Virus record (IMG/VR): IMGVR_UViG_3300044819_000010
Span: 1 to 29,763 of that record
DNA length: 29,763 nt
Direction: 5' to 3' (one strand)
Source of the DNA: a virus
Every line of letters starts with the position of its first letter. Position 1 is the stretch's first letter. Both the position numbers and the translations under genes were made by a program. This document shows positions 1 through 15,703 of the stretch, one piece after another. The notes below the pieces were generated by a model, which did no database searches, was not told the origin of the DNA, and saw nothing but the letters and a program-made list of their open reading frames with translations.

Positions 1-51
1 CTCCAACACGACGCGCACCCTGTCCCCGGTCTTCGGCTGGTACTCAGACAT
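1..51 (-). CDS. Partial small early gene, runs off left edge
   Basis: An ATG at 51-49 opens a frame that stays open to the window edge; 17 residues are visible, beginning MSEYQPKTGDRVRVVLE. The start overlaps the stop of the upstream gene (46-44), as in the rest of this operon. The 'TGDRVRVVLE' segment looks like the first strand of a small SH3/KOW-type beta barrel, but too little is present to assign a function. It shows that the leftward early operon continues beyond the window. Confidence 0.55.
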   Translation of the reverse strand, partial: MSEYQPKTGDRVRVVLE

Positions 52-265
52 CGGTGCCCACTTCCTCTATCTCGTTCCAGTAGCAGCAGATGGTGGCGAA
101 TTCGGGTTGTACGGCGGCTAGTTCGTCCATGGCGACGATGACGTCGCAGTGGGGTCCGCGGGGGGTGTGTCCGACGGTGCCGAGGGCGCCTTGCATGAGG
201 CCGGCGACGGGGCGTGTCAACTGGATGCGGGTGCCTGCCGGGTACTTGGCGTTGGGGTCAGCCAT
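44..265 (-). CDS. Small hypothetical protein, possible SH3-like barrel
   Basis: A 73-aa protein starting at ATG 265, overlapping the end of the HNH gene by 8 bases. It has an 'YPAGTRIQLTRPVAGLMQGALGTVG' type opening, a glycine-turn pattern of alternating short strands seen in small SH3-like phage proteins, and an acidic C-terminus. No catalytic motif is visible. The overlaps on both sides place it in the leftward early operon, so it is probably translationally coupled to its neighbours. Function not recognised. Confidence 0.6.
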   Translation of the reverse strand: MADPNAKYPAGTRIQLTRPVAGLMQGALGTVGHTPRGPHCDVIVAMDELAAVQPEFATICCYWNEIEEVGTDV

Positions 266-713
266 GGTTGAACTCCCAAGGGCCGGCTTCGAGGTGCTGA
301 TCGGCGTGCGGTGCCGCGAGTGCCCATTGGCCGTCTTTGGGGAGCATCCACAGGAGCCGCGCCCCGGGGTAGGAGGACCAGCGTCCGTGGCTGACGTCGA
401 GCAGCACCGGCCACTCGTCGGGGGTGAAGCCAGCTGGGACCATGAGCCCGACGACGGTGGCCCAGGTGGGGTACTTGTGGACGGCCTGGTGGTGATGCCA
501 ACCGCACAGGGTGATCGTGTTCTCGTGGGTGTCTTTCCCGCCGCGGGACTTCAGGAGTCGGTGGTGGATCTCCGCGAACTCCAACGGGATCGGGCCGCAG
601 CCCATCACGCAGGCGCCGTTGTCCCGGGCCCACACTTCGCGGCGGAACGCAGTCCATGCCGTGCGGCGGGCGCGGGTCGTGGTCGAGACGCGGTTGATGC
701 GGGTGCGCTTCAC
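258..713 (-). CDS. HNH endonuclease
   Basis: A 151-aa protein starting at GTG 713, whose start overlaps the stop of the upstream membrane gene (GTGA). It carries a complete HNH nuclease core: a first zinc pair C35/C39, the His pair H50-H51 with 'LLKSRGG' after it, Asn65 in 'THENTITLC', C70, and H73-H75 in 'GWHHHQAVH'. The family makes metal-dependent DNA nicks or breaks. In phages such proteins assist terminase in genome packaging or act as stand-alone homing nucleases. The gene lies at the distal end of the early operon. If the genome is circularly permuted or cos-ended it could lie upstream of the terminase genes, but this is not visible here. The family call is firm; the role is uncertain. 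Confidence 0.88.
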   Translation of the reverse strand: MKRTRINRVSTTTRARRTAWTAFRREVWARDNGACVMGCGPIPLEFAEIHHRLLKSRGGKDTHENTITLCGWHHHQAVHKYPTWATVVGLMVPAGFTPDEWPVLLDVSHGRWSSYPGARLLWMLPKDGQWALAAPHADQHLEAGPWEFNHG

Positions 714-889
714 GAGAGGCTCCAGACGAGCAGCACCGCGCCGCCTGCAACCACGGCCACGGTGCCGAAGACGCAGCCGAAGATGGCCGCAGCGACCTTG
801 AGGCTTTCCACGCGCGCGATCCAGACGAACTGGCCGATGATGGGCGACGCGAGCAGCAGTCCGCCTAGGACGAGCGCGAGCACCTTCAC
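710..889 (-). CDS. Small two-helix membrane protein
   Basis: A 59-aa protein starting at GTG 889, chosen because it overlaps the upstream stop in a GTGA arrangement; a longer frame reaching 943 would run deep into the upstream gene. Two hydrophobic segments are present, about residues 2-22 ('VLALVLGGLLLASPIIG') and 32-55 ('VAAAIFGCVFGTVAVVAGGAVLLVW'). A short loop with an Arg and a Glu separates them. The topology is holin-like, but the position in the early operon argues against a lysis role. Function not recognised. Confidence 0.6.
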   Translation of the reverse strand: MKVLALVLGGLLLASPIIGQFVWIARVESLKVAAAIFGCVFGTVAVVAGGAVLLVWSLS

Positions 890-1158
890 GACGTCACCCA
901 CTCCCGCAGCGGGCGACCCTGAACCGGAGGAACGCCGGTCCACGCCTCGTACTGGGCGCGGGTCATCACTTGCGGGCAGCAGCGGCAGATGACCATGTCA
1001 CCCGGCAACGGCCACCGGTCCACGAGGCCGTGGACGACCTTGTACGGGCCGTGGATGCCTTGTGCTGCAGCGACGTCGGCGTAGTGGTCGACCATGGACT
1101 GTCCGCGTGGCTTCAGGCCGCAGGTGCAGCGGTGCAGGACCGCGATGTGGGATCTCAT
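886..1158 (-). CDS. Small Cys-rich hypothetical protein
   Basis: A 90-aa protein starting at ATG 1158, overlapping the upstream stop by four bases (ATGA). It has a CTC pair near residues 12-14 ('HRCTCGLKPRGQ') and a CRCC cluster near residues 58-61 ('VICRCCPQVM'), which together could form one zinc site. The C-terminus 'AQYEAWTG...REWVTS' resembles the tail of short phage zinc-ribbon proteins. Not recognised further. The overlaps on both ends support translation. Confidence 0.6.
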   Translation of the reverse strand: MRSHIAVLHRCTCGLKPRGQSMVDHYADVAAAQGIHGPYKVVHGLVDRWPLPGDMVICRCCPQVMTRAQYEAWTGVPPVQGRPLREWVTS

Positions 1159-1499
1159 GGCCGGTCCTGGTGTGCTTCGTCCCAGGCCGCTTCCCGCGCA
1201 GCGTCTTCCCGGAGGAACTCCGCCGTGGAGGGCGTGACCTGGTCGAGGTAGTCACCCGACTGGACACGGTTCTCGGCTTCGTCGAGGAACAGTTGCGCCT
1301 GCAAATCCGCCGACAGGGAGCGGGCAGCTTCGCCGTCGAAGTGGACGTACCCTGCCCCGTCCTTGACCTTCAGGGTGAAGTGTCCGTCGTCGCTGCGGGT
1401 GAGGTGGATGGAACTCCGTCCGTGCAGCAGGATCGTCTGCGACACAACCTCAAGCGGCTTCGACGCGGCCGGGACCACCGGGAGCCGTGCCGGGTTCAC
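1155..1499 (-). CDS. Hypothetical early protein
   Basis: A 114-aa soluble protein starting at ATG 1499, coupled by 4-base overlaps to genes on both sides. It has a central stretch of alternating strands (about residues 22-55, including 'SSIHLTRSDDGHFTLKVKDGAGYVHF') followed by an acidic, helical C-terminus that looks suited to protein contacts ('LQAQLFLDEAENRVQSGDYLDQ'). No enzymatic motif, zinc site or HTH is seen. Function not recognised. Confidence 0.6.
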   Translation of the reverse strand: MNPARLPVVPAASKPLEVVSQTILLHGRSSIHLTRSDDGHFTLKVKDGAGYVHFDGEAARSLSADLQAQLFLDEAENRVQSGDYLDQVTPSTAEFLREDAAREAAWDEAHQDRP

Positions 1500-6600: not shown

Positions 6601-6687
6601 TTACTTGCGGGGCCAGATGATCGCGAGGCTGCGTTTGGTCCAGCGGACGACGCGGGCGGGGACGGACAGTCCGGCTACGTGGCTCAC
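6601..6687 (-). CDS. 28-aa peptide ending the late operon, tentative
   Basis: GTG 6687 overlaps the stop of the preceding gene (GTGA) and the frame ends at TAA 6603-6601. The 28-aa basic product (starts MSHVAGLSVPARVVRW, ends IIWPRK) has no recognised function. Evidence is only the coupled start and position before the terminator. Confidence 0.35.
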   Translation of the reverse strand: MSHVAGLSVPARVVRWTKRSLAIIWPRK

Positions 6688-6962
6688 GTGCGGGTGTAGA
6701 CGAGGACTAGCGGGGTGTCGGCGAAGTGCCGGCCCCCGGACGTGTCGCACTCGACGTCCACGGCGTACTCTCCACCGTCGGTGCCGCCGAGTAGCCAGAA
6801 CACGACCTTCGACCCAGACACCGCAGCCGCGGGGGTCGTCAACGTGATCCCGGCCGGGACGGTGACTGTGGGGTTGGAGAGGGTTTCCCCGGTGTTGAGG
6901 AGTGCGGCGAAGTCGACGGCGAAGTCAGCCTTGTCGTCGGGGTCCTTCGTCAGGATCGTCAC
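6684..6962 (-). CDS. Small structural/appendage protein
   Basis: A 92-aa protein starting at GTG 6962, overlapping the tail-fibre stop (GTGA); the same frame is open further upstream only as an antisense-like shadow of the fibre repeats. 'TILTKDPDDKADFAVDFAALL' is followed by beta-rich sequence (about 20-92, 'TVTVPAGITLTTPAAAVSGSKVVFWLLGGTDGGEYAVDVECDTSGG'). It looks like a single immunoglobulin-like beta-sandwich of the kind found in phage tail accessory proteins. It is directly coupled to the fibre gene, so it is probably a fibre partner or decoration protein. Confidence 0.65.
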   Translation of the reverse strand: MTILTKDPDDKADFAVDFAALLNTGETLSNPTVTVPAGITLTTPAAAVSGSKVVFWLLGGTDGGEYAVDVECDTSGGRHFADTPLVLVYTRT

Positions 6963-9208
6963 AACGCCTCCGATACGCGGGTAGATGAGGAAGCCAGGAC
7001 TGTCCGCAGTCCACCCGACGCGGTGGCGGTGCGTTTCGGCGGCGGGGGTGAGACGACGGGGATGTTGCTCGACGCGGTCAGAACTCCGACGCCGGACAGC
7101 GCGGCGGCCATGGCGAACCTGGGGACGCCGGCAACGGTGAGGGTTCCGGTGCCGGAGAGTGCCCCGCCGGTGCTGCCCGTCCCGACTGCGGTGAGGGTCC
7201 CGACGCCAGACAGGGACGCGGACACGGTGAGGTGGGGGGTGTTCGTGGCCGTGAGTGTGCCGGAACCCGAGAACGCCGCCGCGCCAGTGAAGCTCGGCGC
7301 CCCGGTCGCGGTGAGCGTGCCCGACCCGGAGAATGATGCGGGGAAGCTGCCGCCGGTCGTGCCCGACGCCGTGAGTGTCCCGGACCCGGATAGCGCGGCC
7401 GTCGTCGACGTCGCGGGTGTGCCAGTCGCGGTGAGTGTGCCGCTGCCGGAGAGTCCCGCCGCGGCCGTCCAATGCGGGGTGCCAGCAGCCGTCAGGGTGC
7501 CGGACCCGGATAGTGCAGCCGTTCCGGCTTCAGCGGGCTTGCCGGTCGCGGTCAGCGTTCCCGAACCGGAGAGGGCTGCGGTGCCTTGGGCACCGGCGAG
7601 AGACCAGGGCTTGTTCGAGAACATCGCGTCGACGCCGAGTGCGAGCATGGCGTCGCGGTCGCTCGTGTTGTTGACGAGGTACACCCACGCCTTCATCCCG
7701 GCCGTGTGGATGCCCGCGATGAGTGATGGGGTGGCGTTGACCGTGGCGAGGGATAGCGCGATGTGCTTGACGCCGGTGGATGCGATCGTGGAGTAGCCGG
7801 TGACTGCGTCGAGGAGGCAGGTTTCCAGGCCGCCGGCAGCGACGGTGGTGGCGTCGGTGGTGTTGTCGGTCTGGACGATCACGGACTTCTGCAGCCCGTA
7901 CAACTTCACCATCGAAACCACGGCAGCAGCCGAGGTGCCGGCGGAGTCCTTGACCTCCGGCATGCCGATGCGCTTGTTGCCCCAGGCTGCGATCCAGTCG
8001 AGGAACTTCGCCATCGGCTGATCGGCGCCGGAGAAGCCCGAGTTGATGTGCAGCGTGACCGTCGAGAGCTGCGTGTCGGTCAGGGACGCGATAGCACCCG
8101 TGGTGATCGGCGACGACGCGGACGCCATCCGGTCGATCGTGGTGTCGTGCGACAGCCACATGGTGCCGTTGGACGACTGCTGCAGATCCATCTCGTGCAG
8201 GAACGTCGTGTACGGGGCCGTCGCGTTGTACGCCGCGATGGTCTCTTCCGGGCCCGGGTCCCCACCACGGTGAGAGGCCCAGACTGTGTTCGACCAGTTG
8301 ATCGTCGACAGCAGGTCGATCGGCGTAGCGCCGGCCGTCAGGGTGCCCGAGCCGGACAGTGCCGCGGTGCCGGCCTCGGCTGGCGTCCCCGCGGCGCTCA
8401 GCGTGCCTGAACCGGACAGCGTCGCCTGTGCGACCGTGGAGCCGGTAGCCGACAGCGTGCCGGAGCCGGAGAGTGCTGCAGTTCCGGGAATCGCAGGAGT
8501 GCCGACCGCGGAGAGGGTGCCGGAGCCGGAGAGGCTGGCCGAGCCGGTGAACCCTGCGGCGGGGAGCCCTGGGAGCAGCGCATAGCGGATCTGGCCCGCG
8601 TTGGTGGAGACAGTCCACGTGTTGTTGCTGTTCGAGGACCCGGCCGTGGTGTCCGAGTTGGCGATGGCGACCGCGCCGGAACCCGCGCCGGAGCCAGTGC
8701 CCAAGGCCGGAATGGCGAGGAGTGTGTAGCCGGTCGGTGCCGTGACCGATGTCGACGGCGTGGAGGACCGCTCGAGGAAGACCGCGATGGCGGTGGTGTT
8801 CTCGCTGGCTGTCGTCGTCGGGTTGTTCGCTGTCGTCGTACCGGATGCGGTGATGTCCGAGACGATGTTCTCGGTGCCATCCGAGGCGACGACGATAACG
8901 CAGGCGTACTTGCGTTGCGGGCTGGCGCCGAAGGTGATGGTGACGGTGGCGCCGATGTCGCCTGATGCGATGGTCTTCTTGTAGACCTGCGAGTGCATCG
9001 AAGCCGACAGGGTGAGCTCGGTGCCGAGCATCGTCCAGCCGGTGAGCCCGGACGTCGGCATCCCAGTGGCCGGGTTGGCTTCGAGGAAGATGTAGGCGGT
9101 GTCGCCGACGATCGCATCCGAAGGGACCACCACCACGGCTGTCGTGGTGTTGCCGGTGGCGTTCTGCTGCGATGCCCCGAAGGTGCGGACGACGAGGGAA
9201 CCGGCCAC
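6959..9208 (-). CDS. Tail fibre with embedded glycerophosphodiester phosphodiesterase domain
   Basis: A 749-aa protein; GTG 9208 follows GGAGG by 6 bases. Residues 1-215 form a beta-rich attachment or adhesin domain. Residues 222-293 hold four copies of a repeat with core LSGSGTL(S/T)A. Residues 307-537 are a GDPD-type TIM-barrel domain with the family signature: H313-R314 ('ASHRGG'), E321/E322 ('PEET'), E339/D341 ('HEMD') and H354 ('LSHD'). From 543 to about 735 there are nine more repeats, then a Pro/Ser tail. The GDPD family hydrolyses glycerophosphodiesters; on a Gram-positive phage tail the natural substrate would be glycerol-phosphate teichoic acid or a similar polymer. The active-site residues are all present, so it is probably an active depolymerase used in host recognition. 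Confidence 0.85.
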   Translation of the reverse strand: MAGSLVVRTFGASQQNATGNTTTAVVVVPSDAIVGDTAYIFLEANPATGMPTSGLTGWTMLGTELTLSASMHSQVYKKTIASGDIGATVTITFGASPQRKYACVIVVASDGTENIVSDITASGTTTANNPTTTASENTTAIAVFLERSSTPSTSVTAPTGYTLLAIPALGTGSGAGSGAVAIANSDTTAGSSNSNNTWTVSTNAGQIRYALLPGLPAAGFTGSASLSGSGTLSAVGTPAIPGTAALSGSGTLSATGSTVAQATLSGSGTLSAAGTPAEAGTAALSGSGTLTAGATPIDLLSTINWSNTVWASHRGGDPGPEETIAAYNATAPYTTFLHEMDLQQSSNGTMWLSHDTTIDRMASASSPITTGAIASLTDTQLSTVTLHINSGFSGADQPMAKFLDWIAAWGNKRIGMPEVKDSAGTSAAAVVSMVKLYGLQKSVIVQTDNTTDATTVAAGGLETCLLDAVTGYSTIASTGVKHIALSLATVNATPSLIAGIHTAGMKAWVYLVNNTSDRDAMLALGVDAMFSNKPWSLAGAQGTAALSGSGTLTATGKPAEAGTAALSGSGTLTAAGTPHWTAAAGLSGSGTLTATGTPATSTTAALSGSGTLTASGTTGGSFPASFSGSGTLTATGAPSFTGAAAFSGSGTLTATNTPHLTVSASLSGVGTLTAVGTGSTGGALSGTGTLTVAGVPRFAMAAALSGVGVLTASSNIPVVSPPPPKRTATASGGLRTVLASSSTRVSEAL
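6995..8545 (-). repeat. Thirteen coding repeats flanking the GDPD domain
   Basis: Units of roughly 14-19 codons with the core LSGSGTL(S/T)A occur four times upstream of the enzyme domain (residues 222-293, bases about 8330-8545) and nine times downstream (residues 543-735, bases about 6995-7582). The copies differ at the DNA level but keep an antisense-visible core close to CCGGAGCCGGA. The last three copies are degenerate (SGVGTL, SGTGTL, SGVGVL). Such arrays usually form extended beta structures and can change copy number by recombination. Confidence 0.75.
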
Positions 9209-9221
9209 CGATTGCCTCCGG

Positions 9222-10073
9222 TTAGGTCGTCATCAGGGACTTGACGGCAGCCATCTCGGCCGCAGTCGTCAACGGGCCCTCAGGCGGGTAGTCGAAGAAA
9301 CACACGTACTTCGCTCCGGACGCGGCGAACATCTGCCCCATGCGGGTGATCCACGTGGCGTGGAGCGTGCCGTCGGGGTCGGAGGTGAGGCGTTGCGCGC
9401 CGAACTCGGGGACGCTGAACGGCTTCCCCTGCGCCTTCGCGAACGTGACGAACTTCGCCCACGCGTTCGTGTAGTCGTAGTAGGTCGTCTTGGCCGGGAA
9501 GTTGATCCCGTCGCAGTCGTCGCCCAGACCGTCACACTTGACCGCGGCGTAGGCGCTGGGATCCAGGCCGGACGTGGGGTCGAACAGCCACGAAGTGAGC
9601 GTGTTCCACACCAGGACACCGGGATTCGCGGCCTTCGCCACGTCGTAGAAGTGGTTCTTCGCCGCGATGCCCTGCGCCAGAGTCACTGAGCCGGCGCGGA
9701 CCTTCGCGTCGAGCTCGTGCATGAACTCGACGACCGTGCCGGCCGGGAGTGGCTTGAGCATCGCCATAATGGCGGCGTCGTAGGTGCCCGCGATCAGGCC
9801 GGCGTAGTCGTTGCCGCACTTCCACGAGCCGTGGTAGATCGAGCCCATGACGTTTGGTGCAGCGGTGCCCCCGAAGAACTGCCGAACCGCCGCAGCCGTG
9901 CCCCACTTCGTCAGGACCGACTGCGCTGCAGCCTTCGACTCGCCCGCGGGAGGAGCCGGGCAGGCCCCGAACAGGGTGTGAGTCGCCGGTGTCGTCCAGG
10001 TGATCGGGACCTTCACCGCAGCTGACGTGTGTCCTTCGGGGTCGGACAGGGTGAGGGTGATCGTTTCGACCAC
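9222..10073 (-). CDS. Glycoside hydrolase-like tail protein
   Basis: A 283-aa protein starting at GTG 10073, four bases after the upstream stop. Residues 1-32 repeat the last part of the upstream protein's beta domain ('LTLSDPEGHTSAAVKVPITWT'). Residues 33-283 look like a clan GH-A TIM barrel related to GH26/GH5. A candidate acid/base E120 lies in 'VVEFMHELDA' after a strand, and a candidate nucleophile E223 lies in 'FSVPEFGAQR'. The intervening 'GVLVWNTLTSW' and terminal 'YVCFFDYPPEG' match barrel strands 6 and 8. It sits among tail-appendage genes and would cleave a host surface glycan. The family assignment comes from motif spacing only, and the substrate is unknown. Confidence 0.65.
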   Translation of the reverse strand: MVETITLTLSDPEGHTSAAVKVPITWTTPATHTLFGACPAPPAGESKAAAQSVLTKWGTAAAVRQFFGGTAAPNVMGSIYHGSWKCGNDYAGLIAGTYDAAIMAMLKPLPAGTVVEFMHELDAKVRAGSVTLAQGIAAKNHFYDVAKAANPGVLVWNTLTSWLFDPTSGLDPSAYAAVKCDGLGDDCDGINFPAKTTYYDYTNAWAKFVTFAKAQGKPFSVPEFGAQRLTSDPDGTLHATWITRMGQMFAASGAKYVCFFDYPPEGPLTTAAEMAAVKSLMTT

Positions 10074-10077
10074 GGGG

Positions 10078-10344
10078 TCAGCCCTGTACGACGACGGTCA
10101 TCCCGGAGACAGTCACAGTCGATGTCCCGTCCGTGACGGCCTTGAGAACTAGCGGGCCGTCGGTCCACTGGAACGGGACAGTGAACGGCTGCGACACATT
10201 GCCCTCAGGGTCCGTCATGGTGAGGGTGACGTTCTCCGTCCTCGCGTCCGGGTCATGCCCCACCACGGTGAGCGTGACCTTGCTGCCCGTCGTGGACTGC
10301 ACAGGCCCGGACGGGGAGACCGAGTCGATAACGGGGGAGGCCAT
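10078..10344 (-). CDS. Small beta-sandwich tail protein
   Basis: An 88-aa protein starting at ATG 10344, whose A is shared with the upstream TGA. It is one cadherin/Ig-like beta domain: 'PVIDSVSPSGPVQSTTGSKVTLTVVGHDPDARTENVTLTMTDPEGN' pattern, with DPDA and DPEG turns. Its second half is similar to the first 32 residues of the downstream glycosidase-like protein. The two genes may derive from one multidomain protein, or the domain was duplicated. Probably a structural or carbohydrate-contact module. Confidence 0.65.
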   Translation of the reverse strand: MASPVIDSVSPSGPVQSTTGSKVTLTVVGHDPDARTENVTLTMTDPEGNVSQPFTVPFQWTDGPLVLKAVTDGTSTVTVSGMTVVVQG

Positions 10345-10691
10345 CAGGACTGCGTGTAGGTAGCGACGACGGTGTACGTGCCCTGGCTTGCGAAAGCCTG
10401 GGAGGTGACGGTGGCGCCGTCGAGGTAGGTGCCGGCCGTGATGGCCGACATCATGTTGATCCCGACGACCGTGGTCGAGGCTGGGACGTCGAACGCGGTC
10501 GGGGAGGCGACGATGACGGACGCCGAAGCTGTCCCCCAGTTCGCCGCCTTCCGGGCGTAGGCCGGGGACCCACCGGAGACCTCGGTACCAGCCGTGCCGG
10601 ACGGGGTCGTGGTAGCTAGCGCGATGTACGTGATCGGCGTCGAGTACGCCGTGGCGAGGGTCGTGCGCTGGGTCGCTGTCTGGATTGCCAT
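10344..10691 (-). CDS. Putative minor tail/appendage protein
   Basis: A 115-aa protein; ATG 10691 follows GGAGG. It is Ala/Thr/Ser-rich and beta-strand-rich with no Cys, opening 'IQTATQRTTLATAYSTPITYIALATTTPSGTAGTEVSGG' style. This resembles small actinophage virion proteins that often sit beside tail-fibre genes. Ends with a one-base overlap onto the next gene. The call rests on composition and location. Confidence 0.6.
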   Translation of the reverse strand: MAIQTATQRTTLATAYSTPITYIALATTTPSGTAGTEVSGGSPAYARKAANWGTASASVIVASPTAFDVPASTTVVGINMMSAITAGTYLDGATVTSQAFASQGTYTVVATYTQS

Positions 10692-13853: not shown

Positions 13854-14570
13854 CTACGGGCCGGTGGAGTTAATCCACGTCGACCAGTAGGGGATGGCGC
13901 GGCAGTTCCCAGCGCCTGCAGTTACGCGGGTTTGCAGTGAGACGATCACTGCCGTAGTCGAGGCGACGCCGTGGTTCACGGGTCCAAAGATCGCGTCCTG
14001 AGCGGACGTGCCGATTGAAACGGTTGACCCTACCTGGGAGCCGTTCACCAGGAGGCGGGCTTCTCCGGCGGTCGCGCCGGAGTCACAGATTGCGCGGCAT
14101 GCCATGTAGATCCGCTGGCTGCTGGTTTCGGACGCGCCTTGCGCGATCGTGACGAATGACCCGGTGGTGTTGAACGGCCACAGGGAGATGGTCATTGGGG
14201 CCATGGTGATAGGGATCCAGGGCCACCAGAGGCCCGATCCGTCGCCGTTTGGGTCTGTGACGAGGCATTCGTTGCCGGTGCTGTCGAGGATAGCTAGGCC
14301 TGGGTTGCCGACGCCGAGGATGCCGAAGTCGAACATGACGACGCCAGCTGCGGATGAGAGGGAGAAGCCGCGGTTCCCGAAACTGTCGTGTCCGAGCTGC
14401 CCGACGACGTTCCCCGAGTTGTCGAGGACTGTCAGTTGTCCGCCTGCGCTGATGACTGCGTTGCGGATCGCGGGGGCAGTCCGGATGGCGTTGAGTTGTC
14501 GTTGGTGGCTGTCGAACTTCTTCACGACAGCCTGAACGCCTGGGTGCTTGTACCGGTATGGGCCGCTCAC
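13854..14570 (-). CDS. Minor tail protein
   Basis: A 238-aa protein starting at GTG 14570, overlapping the upstream stop (GTGA). It has a short helical N-terminus ('GVQAVVKKFDSHQRQLNAIRTAPAIRNAVI'), then repeated strands typical of tail-tip or fibre-base proteins ('GGQLTVLDNSGNVVGQLGHDSFGNRGFSLSS'). The C-terminal beta domain (about 120-238) looks like a jelly-roll. The stop is 3 bases from the convergent moron's stop. Probably part of the baseplate or a short fibre. Confidence 0.7.
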   Translation of the reverse strand: MSGPYRYKHPGVQAVVKKFDSHQRQLNAIRTAPAIRNAVISAGGQLTVLDNSGNVVGQLGHDSFGNRGFSLSSAAGVVMFDFGILGVGNPGLAILDSTGNECLVTDPNGDGSGLWWPWIPITMAPMTISLWPFNTTGSFVTIAQGASETSSQRIYMACRAICDSGATAGEARLLVNGSQVGSTVSIGTSAQDAIFGPVNHGVASTTAVIVSLQTRVTAGAGNCRAIPYWSTWINSTGP

Positions 14571-15703
14571 TGGGGGACCGTTGCGAGTTGGATGGTGACG
14601 AGGTTCGAGTCGTCCCCGGACTTCCCGGTGATGCGGGTCCGGTAGGCAACCCCGGCTGGGAAGTAACGGTGTCCGACTGGGATGTAGATGCGCACGTAGT
14701 CACCAACGTTGTATTGGGAGACGTTCGGGTCGCCGTCTCGGTCGACTTTCGGGGTGAGGGTGAGCGCGGGGCGGTTGGAGAACTGCAGCGAGCCGGCCGC
14801 GTAGCCGTTGGCTGTTGCCATGTCGGGGGCGTCTTCGTGGCCGGTGATCTCGGCTTCGAGGAGGGGGTAGCCCTGGGCTTGGAGGGTGGTTTGGAGTTGG
14901 TGGCCGACGATGGTGCCTTCGGCGGTCCCGTTTCCCTTGACCCAGGCTTCGTCGGCGAGGGCTGACCCGTCAGTGTGGACGCTGATGGTGGAGACGAGGC
15001 CGTCGGGGACGGTGGCGTCGAAGATCCAGTCAGCGCCGACCTGTGACAGGTAGGGGTTTTCGTTGGTGCCGACGAGCATCACCCACTGCAGGTACCGCGG
15101 GTCCGTGGCGCGTTGGGGGCGGAATGTGACTTCCGGGCCGTTCTGGATTTGGGTGATGGCTCGGAGCATGTCCCCGACCCAGTCGAGCTCGTATCCAGGG
15201 TAGGTGCCGGTGAACGTCCCTGCCTCGTCGGCGGGGAGGACGATGGGGACGTTGCCGCCTGTGTGGGTTTGTGCCTGCGAGACAAGCCTTTTCGCGATCG
15301 TCCCCAACGACCCATTCGTGACGCTAGTGGTGACTGTTGCCGGGTTGTCTGTGGGCGCGAGGACTGGCATCACCTTGCGGTGGTCGAAGTAGCCCCACAT
15401 GCCGGTCCCGGCGACCGTCAACTGTCCGGTGTCGTCGTCGTAGTCGTGTGTCCACGCTGGGCCGCCGGCGAGGAACGTCTCGTTGCCGGACGCGTCCTGG
15501 TAGGCGACTGCTGCGAAGTTCTTCCCGGGCGACGTGTTCGACACGGGTTCCATCGCGTCAATCACGGAGTCGCCGAGCTGGACGACGATCTGCCACGTGT
15601 CGGCGTCGTCCATGACCGCGGACCAGGTCGAGGAGACGACGGGCAGGCGGGCGTAGATCCGGCCTGTGAGGAGATCCCCGGTGTAGACGTTGTATCCGGT
15701 CAC
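14567..15703 (-). CDS. Baseplate/tail-tip protein (Gp37-like minor tail protein)
   Basis: A 378-aa protein from GTG 15703. The opening 'YNVYTGDLLTGRIYARLPVVSSTWSAVMDDADTW' and the closing 'YNVGDYVRIYIPVGHRYFPAGVAYRTRITGKSGDDSNLVTIQLATVP' match the layout of actinophage tail-associated hub proteins of the ReqiPepy6 Gp37 type. These carry a hub-like core and an OB-fold-like end. It lies two genes downstream of the distal tail protein, where the hub gene is expected. No peptidase or lysozyme motif is seen. Confidence 0.75.
   Translation of the reverse strand: MTGYNVYTGDLLTGRIYARLPVVSSTWSAVMDDADTWQIVVQLGDSVIDAMEPVSNTSPGKNFAAVAYQDASGNETFLAGGPAWTHDYDDDTGQLTVAGTGMWGYFDHRKVMPVLAPTDNPATVTTSVTNGSLGTIAKRLVSQAQTHTGGNVPIVLPADEAGTFTGTYPGYELDWVGDMLRAITQIQNGPEVTFRPQRATDPRYLQWVMLVGTNENPYLSQVGADWIFDATVPDGLVSTISVHTDGSALADEAWVKGNGTAEGTIVGHQLQTTLQAQGYPLLEAEITGHEDAPDMATANGYAAGSLQFSNRPALTLTPKVDRDGDPNVSQYNVGDYVRIYIPVGHRYFPAGVAYRTRITGKSGDDSNLVTIQLATVPQ

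Follow-up and report, generated by a model that had tools for sequence, protein, structure and literature searches.

The fibre gene of an uncultured virus (IMG/VR record IMGVR_UViG_3300044819_000010) raises the question of what an enzyme domain placed between two repeat arrays does there and how the repeats hold it. The window, which is the whole stretch of 29,763 bases that was analyzed, encodes terminase, portal, capsid, tape measure, Dit, minor tail proteins, an amidase endolysin, and an integrase. The 749-residue ORF is real and lies on the minus strand (6959..9208, GTG start at 9208, stop codon at 6961–6959), whereas the corresponding plus-strand frame is full of stops; the preliminary description of this DNA had given no strand. 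We favor, with a little more than even confidence, the reading that the product of this gene is a fibre for receptor binding or wall penetration in a siphovirus of actinobacterial type, in which a solenoid shaft would carry a complete GDPD barrel on a loop, cutting glycerophosphodiester bonds in the host wall.

The enzyme domain (residues 307–537; 7598..8290, minus strand) is identified by profile and PDB sequence matches, alignments, AlphaFold, and Foldseek. Residues 313–534 match the Pfam GDPD family (PF03009) with E = 5e-11 and a score of 43.6 bits (cut-off 23.6), covering profile positions 1–242 of 244. The NCBIfam glycerophosphodiester phosphodiesterase model gives E = 4.8e-13, yet far under that model's equivalog cut-off, and the best PDB sequence match is the GDPD of T. 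tengcongensis (2pz0, E = 1.5e-5, residues 308–537). The signature residues are present as H313-R314-G, E321/E322 (PEET), E339, D341, and H354, and alignment to other GDPDs adds E418 and K420 as the E.K motif, which the preliminary description had not listed. From the alignments, H313 and H354 are the two catalytic histidines and E339, D341, and E418 the E/D/E metal ligands, joined by K420; these residues and R314 are all conserved in alignments with phage GDPDs. An AlphaFold model of the barrel, built with seven sequences, has the TIM-barrel fold with a pLDDT of 80–97 in most blocks. Foldseek relates this model to solved GDPDs (E about 1e-11, TMt up to 0.85), with the staphylococcal phage tail GDPDs of phage K gp155 (9f5m) and the phi812 central spike (9eul) among its top matches. 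A GDPD domain with complete signature residues, as first proposed, is thus borne out, with both the profile match above its cut-off and the predicted barrel in place.

Judged by these conserved residues, the enzyme is probably active as a phosphodiester cutter. It is most improbable that the barrel only binds and does not catalyze, which would make the fibre a plain adhesin. Some lectins are built on enzyme folds, and a related phage GDPD that lacks the E.K motif (L055) indicates that loss does occur, but the window copy keeps all catalytic and metal residues. As an active enzyme, it would use its metal-dependent site to cut glycerophosphodiester bonds, most likely those of a glycerol-phosphate wall or lipoteichoic acid. 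It is unlikely, although less so than loss of catalysis, that a fibre of the same architecture cuts some other phosphodiester, such as a wall polymer of the sugar-phosphate type, a capsule or glycan decorated with glycerophosphate, or the headgroups of deacylated lipids. GDPD family substrates are varied, actinobacterial walls contain many phosphodiester polymers, and the Foldseek matches of the barrel include lysophospholipase-D types (8ghh and 7ymp); the phage-tail GDPDs for which a role is reported or proposed, however, act on teichoic acids.

Earlier work has already reported GDPD domains in phage tails and has either proposed or shown that they act on teichoic acid (PMC10194240, PMC7077315). 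Papers that cite the work on the baseplate glycerophosphodiesterase of Lactobacillus phage Ld17 (Cornelissen 2016) link that enzyme to teichoic acid degradation (PMC10194240, PMC6116005, PMC7077315), and the tail GDPDs of enterococcal phages are a further precedent (PMC10194240, PMC6116005). Like the Ld17 enzyme as presented in those papers, the window GDPD would belong to the tail apparatus of a phage that infects Gram-positive bacteria, and its neighbors place its gene within the tail module. According to the same accounts, the Ld17 enzyme is a biochemically characterized baseplate protein of a lactobacillus phage, whereas the activity of the window enzyme is predicted; the SGSG repeat rod is a feature of the window fibre that the passages on Ld17 in these citing papers do not report. 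The C-terminal domain of phage K gp155 and the knob/petal of the phi812 central spike are likewise phage tail domains with the GDPD fold, but there the fold forms the C terminus of a central-spike type protein, whereas the window GDPD is an insert in a predicted solenoid. In Enterococcus phage 9183/Planchet, Streptomyces phage Yara (gp27), and Erwinia phage Snitter, a large tail or fibre-like protein likewise contains a fused GDPD (PMC10194240), although at or near the C terminus, on other scaffolds, and without SGSG repeats. High-GC phage fibre-like proteins in IMG/VR (L057 and L061, together with L055, L056, and L062) carry GDPDs that are 24–29% identical; where their ends are seen, these proteins have a different N terminus and a C-terminal jelly-roll-like domain in place of the repeats. 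The L055 member (2–1342, plus strand), with its E.K motif missing, is perhaps inactive.

The mount of the window enzyme is an array of 13 repeat units with core spacings of 20 (or 18) residues. Four units precede the enzyme (8315..8542, minus strand; cores at residues 226, 246, 264, and 284) and nine follow it (7061..7582, minus strand; cores at residues 546, 566, 586, 606, 626, 646, 666, 684, and 704). The four and nine copies of LSGSGTL(S/T)A described earlier are correct as counts, but the exact motif occurs in only 8 of the 13 units, the others being close variants; in 2000 shuffles of the protein, the motif occurs 0.10 times on average and at most 2 times. Across phages, the repeat spacing is nearly always 18, 20, 22, or multiples of these, as expected if strand parity has to be kept.

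An AlphaFold model of the right array as a monomer, based on 12 aligned array sequences, has a mean pLDDT of 85.9, a pTM of 0.81, and a strand every ~10 residues, giving a predicted coil of 20 residues with two strands; across five models, pLDDT ranges from 70 to 86. The best PDB neighbor by TM-score in Foldseek is 3jx8 (TMq 0.71, rmsd 3.3, prob 0.80, E = 2.3), and E-values of the PDB matches are poor, the best being 0.84. DUF2807 (PF10988) scores 26.3 bits for the right array alone and 23.4 for the whole protein, against a cut-off of 24.2, and matches 5 of 12 arrays at E ≤ 0.1. Both 3jx8 and 3lyc turn up in PDB sequence searches too, and BFVD contains two uncultured phage proteins with the same fold at 34–36% identity. 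Fold prediction, Foldseek, and sequence matches are each weak alone, but in combination they are best read as pointing to a DUF2807-like solenoid rod, and the repeats probably form such a rod rather than a loose spacer. The earlier picture of a spacer scaffold around the enzyme therefore needs amending: the enzyme does lie within the repeat array, but the prediction is of a folded β-solenoid and not of a flexible spacer. Solved DUF2807/GIN-domain solenoids (3jx8, 3lyc, and 3pet) likewise have an SGSG coil motif and about 20 residues per coil, and 3jx8 resembles the predicted fold at the TM-score given above; the solved solenoids are bacterial surface-type proteins or lipoproteins, however, whereas the window rod is from a phage and has an inserted domain. 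A GDPD on a phage tail is already known, and the mount would be the new element: the literature searched, of which coverage was partial, yielded no account of DUF2807-like phage rods or of this way of mounting an enzyme.

How the enzyme is joined to the rod can be read from the junctions. Coil 4 is LSGSGTLTAGATP, followed by the enzyme, and the array restarts with GTAALSGSGTLTA; the enzyme occupies the loop between coils 4 and 5, and no LSGSGTL core is interrupted. We predict that the catalytically complete barrel projects from this loop on a shaft of 20-residue SGSG coils. Because the termini of a barrel are generally close to each other, the insert could leave the rod continuous; in a joint AlphaFold model of GDPD and arrays, the arrays are of low confidence (about 45–70).

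Recent insertion by way of the repeat DNA was considered and rejected. The longest exact match between the left and right arrays is 14 nt, and synonymous codon agreement between them is near random (41% vs 36% expected), compared with 62% among the left units and 46% among the right ones, so that little DNA homology for recombination exists now. The GC content of the enzyme part (65%) is near that of the window (66%) and gives no sign of recent foreign origin. No relative of the whole 749-residue protein was found in IMG/VR (by peptide patterns) or among GenBank phages. The tail gene at 14567–15703 has no close relatives in IMG/VR and only Arthrobacter phage relatives at 33–34% identity, leaving no sister phage for comparison, and no pair of sister phages differing only in the enzyme was found.

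The place of the fibre in the virion is suggested by its gene neighborhood. The gene lies in the tail/lysis module, with the amidase endolysin on one side and the integrase on the other. The downstream gene (6684..6950, start codon approximate, minus strand) encodes a Gp77-like fibre-tail adaptor (PF23148, E = 1.1e-15). Upstream is a 283-residue gene (9222..10073, minus strand) in which, by eye, a short N-terminal segment is followed by a hydrolase-like barrel domain, and which has no matches in Pfam, PHROG, the PDB, or phage sequences; its first residues resemble, also by eye, those of the 88-residue gene at 10078–10344. The gene at 10344..10691 (minus strand) is weakly Gp80-like (podophage GP4 fibre I; PF23140, E = 2.3e-5, with 25.2 bits slightly below the cut-off of 27) and matches PHROG 240 (phrog_240, E = 3.4e-7). 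Within the fibre itself, the N-terminal domain (residues 1–222; 8543..9208, minus strand) has no phage matches at E ≤ 0.1 and none to the N termini of other repeat fibres; we infer a tail-attachment or structural role for it. The C-terminal tail (residues 717–749; 6962..7060, minus strand) is Pro-rich and then Ser/Thr-rich, with low AlphaFold confidence over the modeled part (to residue 735).

A location after the endolysin and near the integrase is a common site of cargo genes, and the N terminus has no recognized tail domain; the product might then be secreted by the lysogen as a moron rather than built into the virion. We consider this improbable, given that the gene is on the same strand as the fibre-like genes, tightly packed with them, and immediately upstream of the adaptor gene, that no signal peptide is obvious by eye at the N terminus, and that the repeat ORFs of other contigs also occur in records with tail and lysis genes. 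As part of the virion, the fibre would presumably dock onto the tail tip through its N-terminal domain, the rod would hold the barrel out toward the cell wall, and cutting would let the tail reach deeper wall. The host is probably an actinomycete, as the window portal is 63% identical to a portal from a genome in the class that contains Streptomyces and the nearest named relatives of the window's minor tail genes are mostly from Arthrobacter phages (33–34% identity). Regions beside the related portal genes in genomes contain no relative of the fibre or of its neighbors.

Relatives of the predicted rod occur in other environmental phages. About 50 repeat loci, some of them near-duplicates, came from repeat-pattern scans of IMG/VR combined with a profile search of the loci retrieved. 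None of these other loci carries a GDPD, nor does any of 28 records other than the window that the repeat scans retrieved and that were searched over their full length. The preliminary description had proposed looking in related fibres for other enzymes set in this repeat frame, and the comparison did find them. Apiosidase-like domains are present in L007 (E 4e-22) and L009 (E 2.5e-26), and L003 has a metallophosphoesterase (E 6e-11), which is beside the array and not within it. By eye, L010 contains a β-helix-like insert, L020 a β-sandwich-like domain, L011 and L018 an α/β-hydrolase-like domain beside the array rather than within it, and L043 (1–3699, plus strand) a propeller-like segment of about 500 residues between arrays, with a weak BNR match and no Pfam match above cut-off. 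L040 (3–5252, minus strand) and L111 (8831–12655, plus strand) are long rods, both with several inserts, among them two related domains that look barrel-like and match no Pfam family; L040 also has a weak CBM match. Many rods have no cargo (for example L015, L041, L042, L045, and L046). For the many inserts with no Pfam match, the label of enzyme rests on appearance, and PDB sequence searches with L043, L018, and L010 returned nothing firm. Inserts flanked on both sides fall between cores, a descriptive result that is partly built in because detection needs intact cores. The 1597-residue ORF of L103 (5596–10386, plus strand) combines repeats with several non-repeat segments and has no Pfam matches.

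Comparison of related fibres indicates that the presence of cargo differs between them. L010 and L045 have a common N-terminal domain (E about 1e-62) and C-terminal arrays with 80% DNA identity, and between these common ends about 600 extra residues are found in L010 only; L004 has an N-terminal domain like that of L007 and L009, but without the apiosidase. Such presence or absence does not show recent exchange. N-terminal homology across all repeat fibres was not detected, the likeness being limited to L004/L007/L009, L010/L045, and L015/L041. The idea of a swappable cassette thus holds insofar as other domains, or none, are found in the same repeat frame in other phages, but not as swapping through repeat DNA. 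With GDPDs on other scaffolds and rods without a GDPD, enzyme and rod appear, from their sequences, to combine independently.

In genome contigs, 14 single pattern matches were found, none of them a real array of this kind. A longer repeat pattern gave no matches. The repeat profile matched 0 of 395 genomes of the Streptomyces class versus 15 of 18 viral records. We tentatively suggest, at somewhat less than even confidence, that a phage-specific β-solenoid rod, widespread in uncultured actinobacterial-type phages, is a general mount, each rod carrying one or several of a set of unrelated enzymes that degrade wall or glycan; the GDPD fibre would be one case. Enzymes or binding domains of various kinds would sit in its inter-coil loops, and some rods would be bare. 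This architecture would differ from that of C-terminal tailspike and baseplate enzymes; among the phage depolymerases known so far, most form either an entire trimeric tailspike or a C-terminal domain. If the loops of such a rod accommodate globular domains unrelated to one another, phages may be able to change their wall-degrading ability without rebuilding the fibre, and the LSGSGTL coils could serve as a sequence tag when uncultured phages are searched for unknown enzymes.

Fibres that bear an enzyme are not the only proteins with the repeat: in L017 (90–2309, minus strand) and L035 (547–2865, plus strand), repeats precede a common C-terminal domain, alike by eye, that has the look of a tail-protein domain. 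The ORFs at L009:6662–8092 (minus strand) and L044:55–1329 (plus strand) encode major head proteins, and tail-type profiles match a C-terminal stretch of the L044 protein, perhaps a surface decoration domain.
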